DNA of 64,000 nt, taken from positions 744,001-808,000 of the forward strand of contig NZ_CP058348.1 in the NCBI RefSeq assembly GCF_013752535.1, written 5' to 3'. The first letter of the stretch is position 1. Each line of letters starts with the position of its first letter. Source of the stretch: Bdellovibrio sp. KM01 (lineage in GTDB: Bacteria; Bdellovibrionota; Bdellovibrionia; Bdellovibrionales; Bdellovibrionaceae). The translations under genes and the position numbers were made by a program. Below the pieces are notes generated by a model that saw nothing but the letters and a program-made list of their open reading frames with translations, was not told where the DNA came from and did not search any database. Positions 40,483-50,746 of this stretch are shown here, in pieces.

Positions 40483-40558
40483 GCTGGTTTAGCTCAATTG
40501 GTAGAGCAGCTGATTTGTAATCAGCAGGTTGCGGGTTCGAGTCCCATAACCAGCTCCA
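40483..40558 (+). tRNA. thrU: tRNA-Thr (anticodon TGT)
   Basis: Acceptor arms GCTGGTT and AACCAGC pair, followed by T and an encoded CCA. The anticodon loop TTTGTAA gives TGT, and the T-arm is GGTTCGAGTCC. It leads the Thr-Tyr-Gly-Thr-tuf cluster found also in E. coli. Confidence 0.96.
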
Positions 40559-40588
40559 AATTTCTCTGAGTAAGTATTTAAAAAAAAT

Positions 40589-40674
40589 GGGTAGGTGCCC
40601 GAGTGGCTAAAGGGGACGGACTGTAAATCCGTTAGCTTGCGCTTACGAAGGTTCGAATCCTTCCCTGCCCACCA
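40589..40674 (+). tRNA. tyrU: tRNA-Tyr (anticodon GTA)
   Basis: GGGTAGG pairs with CCTGCCC (one wobble), followed by ACCA. The anticodon stem ACGGA/TCCGT frames CTGTAAA with GTA, and the long variable arm is typical of tRNA-Tyr. Confidence 0.96.
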
Positions 40675-40719
40675 TTTTTTTAAATATTTTCTCGGTGAAA
40701 TTAGGGTTTCTGTTAATGG

Positions 40720-42297: not shown

Positions 42298-42400
42298 TTA
42301 TTAATGAGAATTGATTGAATACGAGGCGCAAGGAGGAGGCCCTACTGATCAGTAGGTCGACGACGAAGCAACGAAGTAGGCAATCGATTATCATTAATAA
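42298..42400. repeat. Large inverted repeat in the tuf-tRNA-Trp spacer
   Basis: TTATTAATGAGAATTGATTG (42298-42317) and CAATCGATTATCATTAATAA (42381-42400) are complementary at 18 of 20 positions. Inside lies a perfect 16-bp palindrome CCTACTGATCAGTAGG (42341-42356). It belongs to the same kind of spacer structure as those near rpoB and proS. Confidence 0.75.
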
Positions 42401-45451: not shown

Positions 45452-45817
45452 ATGTCTCTAACTAACGATCAACTTGTTGACGCATTGTCTGCGAAAACAG
45501 TTCTTGAAATCGCTGAACTTGTAAAAATGCTTGAAGAAAAATGGGGCGTTTCTGCTGCTGCTCCTGTAGCTGCTGCAGGTCCTGCTGCTGCTGCTGTTGA
45601 AGAAAAAACTGCATTCGACGTAATCTTGGTTGATGCTGGCGCGAACAAAATCAACGTAATCAAAGAAGTACGTGGTTTGACTGGTTTGGGTCTTGCTGAA
45701 GCTAAAGCACTAGTTGAAGCTGGTGGCAAAGCAGTTAAAGAAGGCGCGACTAAAGAAGACGCTGAAAAAATCAAAAAAGCTCTTGAAGCTGCAGGCGCGA
45801 AAGTTACTGTTAAGTAG
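45452..45817 (+). CDS. rplL: 50S ribosomal protein L7/L12
   Basis: The 121-residue L12 has an N-terminal dimerisation region, an Ala-rich hinge ([17 protein letters not shown], about 36-52) and the compact C-terminal domain [24 protein letters not shown] with [18 protein letters not shown] precedes the ATG. A strong terminator follows 32 bases after the stop. Confidence 0.98.
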
Positions 45818-45849
45818 TCTTTCAAACCTTTTGGTTTTGAAAATGCCGA

Positions 45850-45876
45850 AAGCCTCGTGGAAACACGGGGCTTTTT
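45850..45876 (+). terminator. Intrinsic terminator after rplL
   Basis: AAGCCTCGTG-gaaa-CACGGGGCTT is a 10-bp stem with one wobble and a GNRA-like loop, followed by T residues. It cuts rplJL from rpoBC, so rpoBC needs its own promoter or read-through. Confidence 0.9.
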
Positions 45877-45909
45877 GCTTTTTAGGACCTTGTTTTTCTC
45901 GACGACCGC

Positions 45910-46047
45910 CATGCCTTTCGAAAATCCGTGATCTGCCTCGACTATTTTCGACCCGCGCTTCCTGCGCTTGCCCGGCTTGGGTACCGCATCCTGCGGGCCG
46001 GGAGGTCGAAAATATCCGAGGCAGCTCCCGAATTTTCGAAAGTCATG
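45910..46047. repeat. 138-bp nested inverted repeat I before rpoB
   Basis: The 44-base arms at 45910-45953 and 46004-46047 pair over most positions with few mismatches. The loop contains GCGC-ttcct-GCGC and CCCGG/CCGGG around the perfect CCGCA-tcc-TGCGG. The word TCCTGC appears at 45960-45965 and 45989-45994. Confidence 0.9.
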
Positions 46048-46187
46048 ACTGACGCGCTAAATCATGATGTCTAAAAACAACAAACCCCGCGTTTCTAAGA
46101 TCTCCAAATCGGAGAATCACGTTCAATAAAATAAAAATCGAAGGAAAAACTACTTCGCGTATCCGAGAAAAATCGGTTCTGTGGTGG

Positions 46188-46415
46188 TTTCGGTTATTTA
46201 ATTTCTTACAAAACTTCTTTTTTGACCTCGAAACAGCGTTTTGGGGAGGGGGAAGGGTTGCATATTTTGAGGCCTCCGCCCCCGCACGACGCGGTACCAA
46301 GGGGCGGTGAGGGCCGGAAGCCCGTGCCCAAAATATGCAACCCTTCCCCCTCCCCAAAATGCGGCCTTCCGCAGCCCAAATCACACGGAGTTTTGTAAGA
46401 AGGTAAAGAACCGAA
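46188..46415. repeat. Giant nested inverted repeat II before rpoB
   Basis: The inner arms 46236-46269 and 46329-46362 are complementary over 34 bases with one G-T wobble. A loop of about 60 bases contains CCGCCCC/GGGGCGG. Outside, about 46188-46216 and 46388-46415 extend the pairing with the exact TTCTTACAAAACT/AGTTTTGTAAGAA core. Together they form one of the longest perfect palindromic structures in the window. Confidence 0.92.
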
Positions 46416-46546
46416 AGTACTTATAATTCCTTGCTTTTCCGAAAACCCGGAAGTAGTTTGGTTCCTTGCGTTTTGATTTTATTTAATGTGGTTCTTGATT
46501 CTTCCGCCCGAAGTGAAGTTTCGATTTTCTTATCACGGAGAGTACA

Positions 46547-49500
46547 TTGGAAAAAACTCCAGTTACGGCTTCTAACATTCGAGTTAGAAAGTCTTTCGCG
46601 AAAAATAAGCAAGTCATTGATATTCCCAACTTGATTGAATTGCAGAAGTCTTCTTACGAAGCTTTCATTCAAAAAGATATGGATCCAGATCGCCGTGGCG
46701 AAGCTGGTCTCAATGGCGTTTTCAAATCTGTTTTCCCAATCACAGATTTCAACAACACTGCAAGCCTAGAGTTCGTATCTTACACTCTTGAGCCAGCAAA
46801 ATACGACGTAGATGAGTGTCGTCAGCGCGGAATGACTTTCGCTGCTCCGATCAAAGTTACTCTTCGTCTCATCGTGTTTGATGTTGATGAAGAAACAGAA
46901 GCACGTTCTATCCGTGACGTAAAAGAACAAGAAGTTTATTTGGGCGAAATCCCATTGATGACTGCAAACGGTTCTTTCATCATCAATGGTACTGAGCGCG
47001 TTGTTGTATCTCAGTTGCATCGTTCTCCGGGCGTGTTCTTCGATCACGACGGTGGTAAAAACAATGCTTCTGGTAAATTGATCTACTCTGCACGCGTGAT
47101 CCCATACCGTGGTTCTTGGTTGGATGCTGAATTTGACCAAAAAGATTTGATCCACGTTCGTATCGATCGTCGTCGTAAATTCCCAGTTACAATCTTGTTG
47201 AAAGCATTGGGTTACAACGCTGAACAACTTCTTGAATACTTCTACGACCTTGACGAAGTTTACGTTAAAGGTGGCAAGTTGTTCCGTAAGTTGGATATCG
47301 AAAGAATGTCAGGCCAAAGAGCATTGACTGATATCCTTGATCCAAAAGGTGGCGAGGCACTAGTTAAAGCTGGTCGTCGTATCACTCGTGCGATCGTTAA
47401 GAAAATCAAAGATCTTAATATCACTGAACTTGAAGTTGAGCCAAAAGACCTTGATGGTAAAGTTTTGGCGAAACCTCTTATCGATGAATCCACTGGTGAG
47501 ATCATCGCGGATGCGAACGCGGAATTAAATTCTGCCATCATCAAACGCGCTATCGAATCTGGCATCGAAAGCTTCTACATGATCTTCTTCGACGGTTTGA
47601 CTGTTGGACCTTACCTTCGCAACACATTGTTGGTTGATAAAGTTTCTAACAAAGACGAATCATTGGTTGAGATCTACAAACGCCTTCGTCCTGGTGAGCC
47701 TCCAACTTTGGAAGCTGCTACGACATTCTTCGGTCGTTTGTTCTTTGATCCAGAGACTTATGATCTTTCTGAAGTTGGTCGTATCAAGATCAACCACAGA
47801 TTCGGTATCTCTATGGAAGAGTGCCCACCGTCTCACAGAACACTGACTCACAAAGATATCTTGAGCACTATCAAAACGCTTATCGATCTGAAAAATGGTC
47901 GCGGTGTTATCGACGATATCGATCACTTGGGTAACCGTCGTGTTCGTTCCGTAGGTGAGTTGCTTGAAAACCAATACCGTATCGGTTTGGTTCGTATGGA
48001 GCGCGCTATCCGTGAACGTATGTCTCTACAAGACGTAGAAACAATGATGCCTCACGATCTAGTGAACGCTAAACCAGTAAACGCAGTTGTTAAAGAATTC
48101 TTCGGTTCTTCTCAATTGTCACAATTCATGGACCAAACAAATCCATTGTCCGAGATCACGCACAAACGTCGTTTGTCAGCTCTTGGACCTGGTGGTTTGA
48201 CTCGTGACCGTGCCGGTTTCGAAGTACGTGACGTACATCCAACGCATTACGGTCGTATCTGTCCAATCGAAACTCCAGAGGGTCCAAACATCGGTTTGAT
48301 CGCCTCTTTGGCAACTTACGCTCGTATCAACAACTACGGTTTCATCGAGACTCCGTACCGTAAAGTTGAACAAGGCGCAGTTTCTAAAGACATCAACTAC
48401 TTGTCTGCATTGGAAGAAGCGGGTCACTACATCGCTCCTGCAGCTCGTGATGAAGCTGGTAACAAATCAATCCAAACTGCTACGACAATTACTCGTCGTG
48501 ACGGTGAGTACGAAATCGTTGATAAAGATAAAGTTGCCTTGATGGACGTTTCTCCATCTCAGCTGGTATCTATCGCGGCTTCTTTGATTCCGTTCCTAGA
48601 GCATGACGATGCCAACCGTGCCCTGATGGGTTCGAACATGCAACGTCAAGCGGTTCCATTGTTGCGTTCTCGCGCACCACTAGTTGGTACAGGCGTTGAA
48701 CGTTTGGTTGCTCGTGACTCTGGTACATCTGTCGTTGTTCAAAATGATGGTATCGTTGAAGAAGTAGATGCTTCTCGTATCGTTATCCGTCGTTTTGCTA
48801 AAGGCGGAGAACTTGGTGCGAACGTAGATATCTACAATCTAACTAAGTACCAACGTACAAATCAAAATACATGCTTCAATCAAAAACCAATCGTAACTGT
48901 TGGTGACAAGGTTTCTAAAGGCGACATCGTTGCCGATGGTCCTTCCACTGAGCTTGGCGAGTTGGCTCTAGGTCAAAACATCCTAGTAGCGTTCACTCCT
49001 TGGCAAGGTTACAACTTCGAGGACTCCATCCTTATTTCTGAACGCTTGTTGAAAGACGACGTTTACACATCTATCCACATCGAAGAGTTCGAGTGCGTAG
49101 CGCGTGACACGAAATTGGGTAAGGAAGAGATCACTCGCGATATCGCAAACGTTGGTGAAGAAGCACTTAAAGACCTAGACAGCTCTGGTATCATCCGCAT
49201 CGGTGCGGAAGTTCGCCCTGGTTTCATCTTGGTTGGTAAAGTTACTCCTAAAGGTGAAACTCAACTTTCTCCTGAAGAAAAACTTTTGAGAGCGATCTTC
49301 GGTGAAAAAGCTGGTGATGTACGTGATACATCCCTTCGCGCACCATCTGGCGTTTACGGTACTGTTATCGACGCACAAGTTTACTCTCGTGAAGGCGCAG
49401 ACCGCGATGAGCGTTTGTCTTCAATCATCGAAGAGAAAAAACGCAAGCTTGAAAAAGACTTGGCTGTTGAACAGAACGTTATCAAAAATAACTCCATCAC

Positions 49501-50746
49501 GAAACTTCGCGATATCTTGGTAGGCAAAATCACTACTGGCGTATTGTTGAATGAAGATGGTTCACAAAAACTTTTGAACAAAGGTCAATCGATCACGATC
49601 GCGGATATCGAAACAATTCCATTCGAATTGTTGAACTATATCCCTCTTGAGCAAGATCTTGAGTTCCAAGTTAACAAAATCATCGACAACGCTCGTAACC
49701 AACTTGACGCAGTTAAATTGGTATTCAACGAGAAGATCGATCGCCTTCGTAAAGGTGACGAGCTTCCTCCAGGCGTTATCAAAATGGTTAAAGTTTACGT
49801 TGCGATTAAACGTAAAATGCAAGTCGGCGATAAATTTGCCGGCCGTCACGGAAATAAAGGTGTCGTTTCTAAAGTGTTGCCTGTTGAAGACATGCCATAC
49901 CTTGCAGACGGTTCTCCGGTTGACATGGTTCTGAATCCACTGGGCGTACCTTCACGTATGAACATTGGTCAGGTCCTTGAGGTTCACTTGGGTTGGGCAG
50001 CGCACAACTTGGGTAAACAAATCGGTGCCCACCTTGATAAGTGGAATGCAGAAAACGCACGTAAAGAAATGAAAGATATCTTCAATGATTCTGATATCAG
50101 CACAAAACTTGATGGTGCTGACGAAGCTTCTTTGAAATCAATGGTAACTCGTATGAAGAACGGTATCCACGTTGGAACACCGGTATTCGACGGTGCTCGT
50201 GAGTCAGACGTTAAGAACTTGCTTGCGAAAGCAGAAGTTCCACTTTCTGGTAAGTCCATCCTATTCGATGGTCGTACTGGTGAGCCGTTCACGAACCCAG
50301 TTACTGTGGGTATCATGTACATGCTTAAACTTCACCATCTGGTTGAAGAGAAGATCCATGCTCGTTCTATCGGACCTTATTCTCTCGTTTCGCAACAACC
50401 TTTGGGCGGTAAAGCTCAATTCGGTGGTCAGCGTCTAGGGGAGATGGAAGTTTGGGCGATCGAAGCATACGGTGCCGCTTACTCTCTACAAGAGTTCCTA
50501 ACTGTTAAGTCAGATGACGTAGCAGGTAGAACACGTATGTACGAAAGTATCGTTAAGGGTGAAAACATCCTTGAGCCGGGTCTTCCTGAATCGTTCAACG
50601 TTCTAGTGAAAGAGCTTCAGTCTCTTGCATTGAATGTTGAGTTGATGGAGTCCGACATCCTTCGTGATCAAGATGAAGATCTTGATGGCGGTGGCGATGT
50701 TATTGAAGCAACTGTTGTGGCTCCTACTGAGCCAGAGCAGCACTAA
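46547..50746 (+). CDS. rpoB: RNA polymerase beta subunit
   Basis: The 1399-residue beta subunit of RNA polymerase. It has the rifampicin region [27 protein letters not shown] and [19 protein letters not shown]. The start is TTG at 46547, with GGAG 6 bases upstream; [10 protein letters not shown] is the encoded N-terminus. It starts 729 bp after rplL and 28 bp before rpoC. Confidence 0.99.

Follow-up and report, generated by a model that had tools for sequence, protein, structure and literature searches.

Dispersed hairpins that share a conserved head, present twice in the rplL-rpoB spacer of a Bdellovibrio

What is the giant nested inverted repeat that lies between rplL and rpoB in a Bdellovibrio? 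The window analysed here, 64 kb in length, covers positions 744001-808000 of a 3.96-Mb chromosome (genome G000) and contains the rplL-rpoB genes. A first-pass annotation of this DNA described the repeat (element II) and offered several roles for it, from a mobile or amplified element or a structured RNA to a DNA cruciform or a nucleoid-protein or gyrase site isolating the rpoBC domain. Its interpretation was partly supported. The hairpin family to which element II belongs is dispersed and has a conserved head, stems that co-vary and strand-specific folding; at several loci its stems are inverted duplications of the 3' ends of genes. With a probability of about one half, element II represents a single copy of a REP-like hairpin element, found in Bdellovibrionales, that would fold as single-stranded DNA, be spread by a RAYT and owe its stems to template switching.

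Two opposed hairpins in the rplL-rpoB spacer

The inner arms of element II are 97% complementary with a single G.T pair, and the 59 nt that separate them fold into additional stems. The folded strand of 301 nt reached -145 kcal/mol (z = -10.8), and none of 100 shuffles was equally low. The nested repeat is therefore real, as first described, with both its inner and its outer arms (Table 1). The rplL terminator was also recovered by a terminator scan at the place claimed for it. The same scan called no intrinsic terminator, that is, a GC stem-loop directly followed by a U-tract, at either hairpin of the spacer, and the view that hairpin II is more than a plain terminator was upheld.

Table 1. 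Features of the rplL-rpoB region, in window coordinates
Feature	Position	Strand	Basis or remark
rplL (ribosomal protein L7/L12)	45452-45817	+	upstream gene; ORF, identity from own sequence
rplL intrinsic terminator	45848-45875	+	terminator scan; separate from element
Element I, second family hairpin	45903-46054	-	reverse orientation to II; arms 45903-45953 / 46004-46054, 82% complementary
Element I head, class A, 62 nt	45948-46009	-	covariance model R1, 85.9 bits
Element II, complete (head with inner and outer arms)	46188-46416	+	inverted-repeat search, folding, ortholog covariation
Element II outer 5' arm	46188-46215	.	28 nt, 89% complementary to 46389-46416
Element II inner 5' arm	46236-46269	.	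34 nt; compensated changes between orthologs
Element II head, class A, 62 nt	46269-46330	+	covariance model R1, 73.3 bits; head covariation
Element II head helix P1	46269-46273 / 46326-46330		
Element II head helix P2	46276-46281 / 46302-46307		
Element II head helix P2a	46282-46285 / 46291-46294		
Element II head helix P3	46311-46314 / 46320-46323		
Element II inner 3' arm	46329-46362	.	34 nt
Element II outer 3' arm	46389-46416	.	28 nt
rpoB	46547-50746	+	downstream gene; ORF, identity from own sequence

No inverted repeat of the window is stronger than the long arms of hairpins I and II, and these two hairpins are the only ones in it that carry a head on a long stem. Their loops are homologous and lie in opposed orientations, with the heads 260 nt apart. 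The same paired arrangement was found in the rplL-rpoB spacers of four other genomes (G012, G022, G010 and G020). Loss of the structure in close relatives had been named as the check on the first description; G012 and G022, whose spacers are 86-88% identical, retain both hairpins with compensated changes. Among five species, 29 of the 54 stem pairs of element II were altered on both sides, compared with 9.8 in shuffles (0/500 as high) and at most 12 when the partner was slid. The stem of element I, compared in nine species, gave 28 of 49 pairs against 14.5 in shuffles (again 0/500 as high). Pairing has been kept through evolution, as the annotation had proposed. A search of a plasmid collection gave no match to the element.

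Further inverted repeats were noticed in the window. One of 31 nt (40556-40586 / 40675-40705, 84% complementary) brackets the tRNA-Tyr gene at 40589-40674 in a tRNA cluster, and another of 25 nt (42298-42322 / 42376-42400, 84% complementary) lies directly ahead of tRNA-Trp (42409). A different hairpin occupies the rplL-rpoB spacers of G006 (L035 1257-1432), G002 (L031 1254-1429), G023 (L048 254-429) and G018 (L044 263-450). It has a loop of ~100 nt with the conserved ends TTCGGACAGTCCTCGC and GCTGYGGAACT, stands on stems of 38-43 bp and probably represents a second head class.

The conserved head and its distribution

A genome search with element II returned the element itself and one partial match, which spanned the loop and not the arms, and a search with the loop of element I led to another locus, 3' of ssb. 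It is the loop, and not the arms, that is repeated and dispersed. When brought into one orientation, the loops of elements I and II align with those of 11 dispersed loci over ~62 nt, with 27 invariant columns. This head is a GC-rich three-way junction (P1/P2-P2a/P3) of 57-74 nt with two small hairpins. It consists of P1, a CU, P2 with P2a stacked upon it, a joining strand (7 nt, or an extra hairpin in class B heads), a GA-containing joint, P3 with its nGGAn loop, and GN. Most head loops are nGGAn, and many P2a loops are ACGAY. Twelve heads contained 30 cells altered on both sides, compared with 8.9 in shuffles. Eighty distinct heads, in an alignment that was fitted to the covariance model and is biased towards it, contained 376 double-change cells compared with 118 in shuffles (0/500 as high), and 97% of cells were paired.

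The covariance model R1, which includes just 5 bp of the stem, was used to count copies. At E <= 0.1, 23 of the 24 genomes of the genus had at least one match, with about 19 in G000, 22 in G012 and a range of 0-22 per genome. Matches were found in 10 of the 20 genera of the family and in 17 of the 66 genera of the order Bdellovibrionales. On reading, the weaker matches of G000 proved to have the same junction and long stems, and the stems of 18 of 20 weaker or more distant matches (17 in other genera, 3 in G006) exceeded the 99% level of random positions. Seven matches in G249, which lies outside the order, are likely to be a set beyond it. Where matches to the head pattern fell in named genomes, these were Bdellovibrio MAGs. 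Such dispersal through genome, genus and order fits the early reading of a mobile or amplified element. In the draft genomes G033 and G062, several heads lie within about 250 nt of contig ends. This suggests that short-read assemblies break at the hairpins and that MAGs understate the number of copies.

The family appears to be undescribed. Rfam 15 at the gathering threshold identified tRNAs only in the window, and at gathering and relaxed thresholds it assigned no known RNA family to the element in the window and the 11 further loci; loci outside the window gave weak generic stem matches to miRNA models. The SRP Alu domain and the c-di-GMP riboswitch were also considered and drew no support from the Rfam scans. 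No published description of the head family was found in Rfam 15 or in searches of the open-access literature.

Presence of the element is lineage-specific. At the 3' end of ssb it was found in five congeners, while ordinary terminators occupy the site in others; for ten genomes of this comparison, including three carriers, the automatic search did not find the stop codon. Between G000 and G012, one ortholog in G000 is head-less and keeps a shorter hairpin in which paired differences are compensated. Arm pairing can outlast the head at this site. Rather than a virgin target, this site resembles a deletion derivative and shows a CGC microhomology; an exactly empty target site was not recovered.

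The folded strand and the origin of the stems

Which nucleic acid folds was approached through isolated mismatches inside good stems, with known orthologs removed. On the head strand, G.T mismatches outnumbered A.C (46 vs 15), and A.G outnumbered C.T (43 vs 6). Folded single strands, of RNA and DNA alike, readily accommodate G.T and G.A. A double-stranded signal would be symmetric; the counts therefore point to one single strand, the head strand, as the folded form.

That strand could be RNA. A transcript in head orientation, either driven by a promoter of its own or forming the 3' UTR of the upstream, convergent gene, would then present its GGA-loop hairpins to a protein such as a CsrA-type regulator, with the long stem shielding the RNA or being cut by RNase III. 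CsrA prefers GGA-loop targets, which most of the head loops, being nGGAn, resemble, and both the strand asymmetry of the mismatches and the strong covariation in heads and in the stems of I and II would suit an RNA. One divergent head (L231) also scored 37 bits with the TwoAYGGAY RNA (RF01731). However, this score is under the gathering score of 43 and concerns a single locus, many P2a loops have ACGAY in place of GGA, and tRNA was the sole family that Rfam called in the window. An RNA should favour G.U far above A.G; in the stems G.U is no commoner than A.G, and in the heads it is nearly absent (6/1443 cells, compared with 7/106 in five tRNAs of the window), with the caveats that the GC content of the heads is very high and that G.T would also be suppressed by homogenisation through template switching. 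In G006, taken as HD100, none of the three model-matched copies or the rplL-rpoB hairpin coincides with any of the eight attack-phase sRNAs (PMC3627812). A structured RNA family is accordingly a doubtful explanation. The strong covariation keeps an RNA in play, but the scarcity of G.U pairs turns the argument towards folded single-stranded DNA, which is rather probably the acting form. Covariation so strong is normally taken as proof of RNA, and the case carries a warning, since the pair statistics here favour DNA combined with mutational copying between arms.

Nearly all loci are intergenic, lying between ORFs; five overlap a long ORF call that may not be real. At 50 of 66 de-duplicated loci, the gene ending on the 3' side was antisense to the head strand (p = 3e-5), and the commonest context was convergent (+H-, 31/70), both counts resting on crude ORF calls. 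Heads peak 55-64 nt past the stop codon of the adjacent gene. This position, the convergent context and the replacement of the terminators of congeners at ssb in five species are what a transcription-termination or mRNA 3'-end device would display, in which the hairpins substitute for terminators or block convergent read-through and selection for long stems explains the pairing. Such a device is unlikely. The hairpins examined (the ssb copies and element II) are not followed by a U-tract, neither a conserved head nor copied codons are required for termination, the asymmetry of the fold points to the strand that is antisense to the adjacent gene, and the spacer of the window already has the rplL terminator upstream.

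The stems, of ~20-80 bp, are largely unrelated in sequence between loci and are nevertheless paired. At the ssb locus (L025/L087/L115), the last ssb codons (NDEIPF and the stop) recur in inverted form within the far arm. The freshest case, L236 in another family, has a perfect stem (78/78 bp) that takes in the stop of a BPD_transp_1 permease gene and the eight codons before it (AFDPKMKK*); the inverted copy sits directly after the stop of the neighbouring gene, so that 78 bp of flanking DNA, coding codons included, were copied backwards without error. A general test measured the complementarity between the far flank and the last 75 nt of the gene ending 3' of the head. The 99% permutation threshold was exceeded at 11 of 53 loci, against 1 of 35 when the gene on the opposite flank was used; the 53 include some orthologs and are not all independent events. 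The arms of element II yielded no traceable copy of a neighbouring gene. In the related ~100-nt-loop hairpins of G006, G002 and G023, the outer arm reproduces the 3' half of the rplL terminator. Not all arms derive from the host: in G033, G029 and G062, arm segments are partly common to the copies within a genome, and the element there evidently brings along part of its own stem.

Template switching is known to make and maintain perfect stems (PMC8794818), and snap-back synthesis with template switching is probably both the origin and the upkeep of the stems in this family. It might even be the whole story: a strong head would provoke template switching at the fork, and extension of the palindrome and homogenisation of its arms would follow with neither transposition nor function. 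The known mechanism (PMC8794818, PMC8604942), the codons copied into stems and the compensated changes between orthologs, seen even at the head-less site of G000, all suit such a purely mutational product. It leaves unexplained, however, how homologous heads came to lie in many genera and at many unrelated loci, why the junction and loops of the head are conserved and why the mismatches differ by strand, and we consider it improbable as a complete account. Very unlikely indeed is an insulator of the rpoBC domain in the form of a DNA cruciform or of a site for gyrase or a nucleoid protein: a long perfect inverted repeat retained by congeners in the spacer of an essential operon would suit it, but the same element recurs next to ssb, transporter and other unrelated genes, its arm sequence is not conserved, and its mismatch types differ by strand, which is unexpected for a symmetric cruciform. 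The supposed regulatory feature specific to rpoBC is thereby removed; a role of the hairpins in rpoBC expression is neither shown nor needed, and two opposed copies fill the spacer.

Spread of the head and comparison with known elements

A candidate transposase was found next to the head once. In G033 (L258), a RAYT-like Y1_Tnp gene (1782-2330, +, 182 aa) is flanked by three heads, two to its left (1289-1345, - and 1413-1469, -) and one to its right (2719-2776, +). The protein scored 35 bits with Y1_Tnp, above the Pfam cut-off, and 32.9 bits with NCBIfam REP_Tyr_transpos, below the cut-off of 80. This is a textbook RAYT layout and the sole case found. The 11 Y1 genes of G000 all lack a head within about 1.3 kb, and no confident head accompanies the relatives of the G033 RAYT at 29 of their 30 loci. 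A correlation between head and Y1 copy numbers, significant overall, vanishes outside one clade and was dropped as support. Mobilisation of the head by a RAYT-type enzyme is given slightly less than even odds. Mobility by a reverse transcriptase was rejected on the lack of any RVT_1 match (reverse transcriptase; group II intron/retron) in the copy-rich genomes G000, G012, G022, G010 and G011.

RAYT-like genes are abundant in the order Bdellovibrionales (80/140 genomes, up to 24 per genome), and Bdellovibrio is unmentioned in the RAYT and REP papers that were text-searched for the name. Two such genes are followed by other hairpins. One with 33-bp arms and an unrelated loop (L268 1049-1209) lies after a homologue of the G033 gene (69% identical), and a perfect 21-bp hairpin (L278 1985-2059) lies after a RAYT-like gene of G006. 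Also in G006, within L260 (561000-565500), a Y1_Tnp match at 563484-563747 lies no more than ~1.6 kb from attack-phase sRNAs 3 and 4 (561854-561981 and 562984-563081; PMC3627812).

In the preferred reading of a REP-like, RAYT-spread element, the head would fold as single-stranded DNA during replication, and a Y1 (RAYT-like) transposase would recognise the folded head and spread it to gene 3' ends. DNA synthesis would then snap back on the folded head and copy the adjacent host strand, giving a perfect stem. Later template switching would re-copy one arm onto the other and leave mutations in both. A bolder and tentative proposal, on balance unlikely, is a new class of mobile hairpin, in which insertion of the head behind a gene forces snap-back synthesis and a perfect inverted duplication of the 3' end of that gene, and the arms are afterwards kept in step by repeated template switching. 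If true, the outcome of transposition would be unlike cut-and-paste, copy-and-paste or peel-and-paste. The spread of REP-like palindromes is poorly understood (PMC8266576), and the locally derived stems may record the mechanism of insertion, which would make that question testable.

Several known systems resemble parts of the element. The TwoAYGGAY RNA (clan CL00106) likewise has two hairpins with GGA loops; the loops of the head element are often ACGAY or AGGA, and the window contains no TwoAYGGAY match. Plant MIRNA genes that arose by inverted duplication of target genes (PMC3237417) also form a long fold-back from an inverted copy of a gene's own sequence. Here, in contrast, the setting is bacterial, the 3' tip of the gene alone is copied, a conserved head is present, and small RNAs are without evidence.

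The closest likeness is to the REP/RAYT (TnpA_REP) systems, including REPtrons, BIMEs and REPINs (PMC8266576, PMC2817692, PMC6006769). These are also intergenic palindromic DNA whose palindromicity is held by compensatory changes; pairs in opposite orientation occur at I/II, L046, L051, L025 and L150, and the G033 gene lies between copies of inverted orientation. Unlike REPs, the element has a three-way-junction head and long, mostly locally derived stems, and its linkage to a transposase was seen once. A GT[AG]G foot was found in 8 of 98 heads within 12 nt before P1, and the 5' arm had it at its foot in 4 of 98, where chance gives 5.6%; copies number 0-22 per genome compared with usually more than 100 for REPs. 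Since it has neither the GTAG foot nor the high copy number, the element is set beside the REPs and not filed among them. CGTC-tagged REPs (PMC3733652) are similarly dispersed palindromes without an obvious dedicated transposase, and the 3' side of the head contains CGnGTC; their 8-9-bp stems, 4-5-nt loops and terminal CGTC motif differ from the junction and the far longer stems described here. Finally, template-switch quasi-palindromes (PMC8794818, PMC8604942) share the reverse-complement copies of adjacent sequence, the perfect stems and the compensated changes, whereas in the present family a conserved, dispersed head always lies at the turning point.
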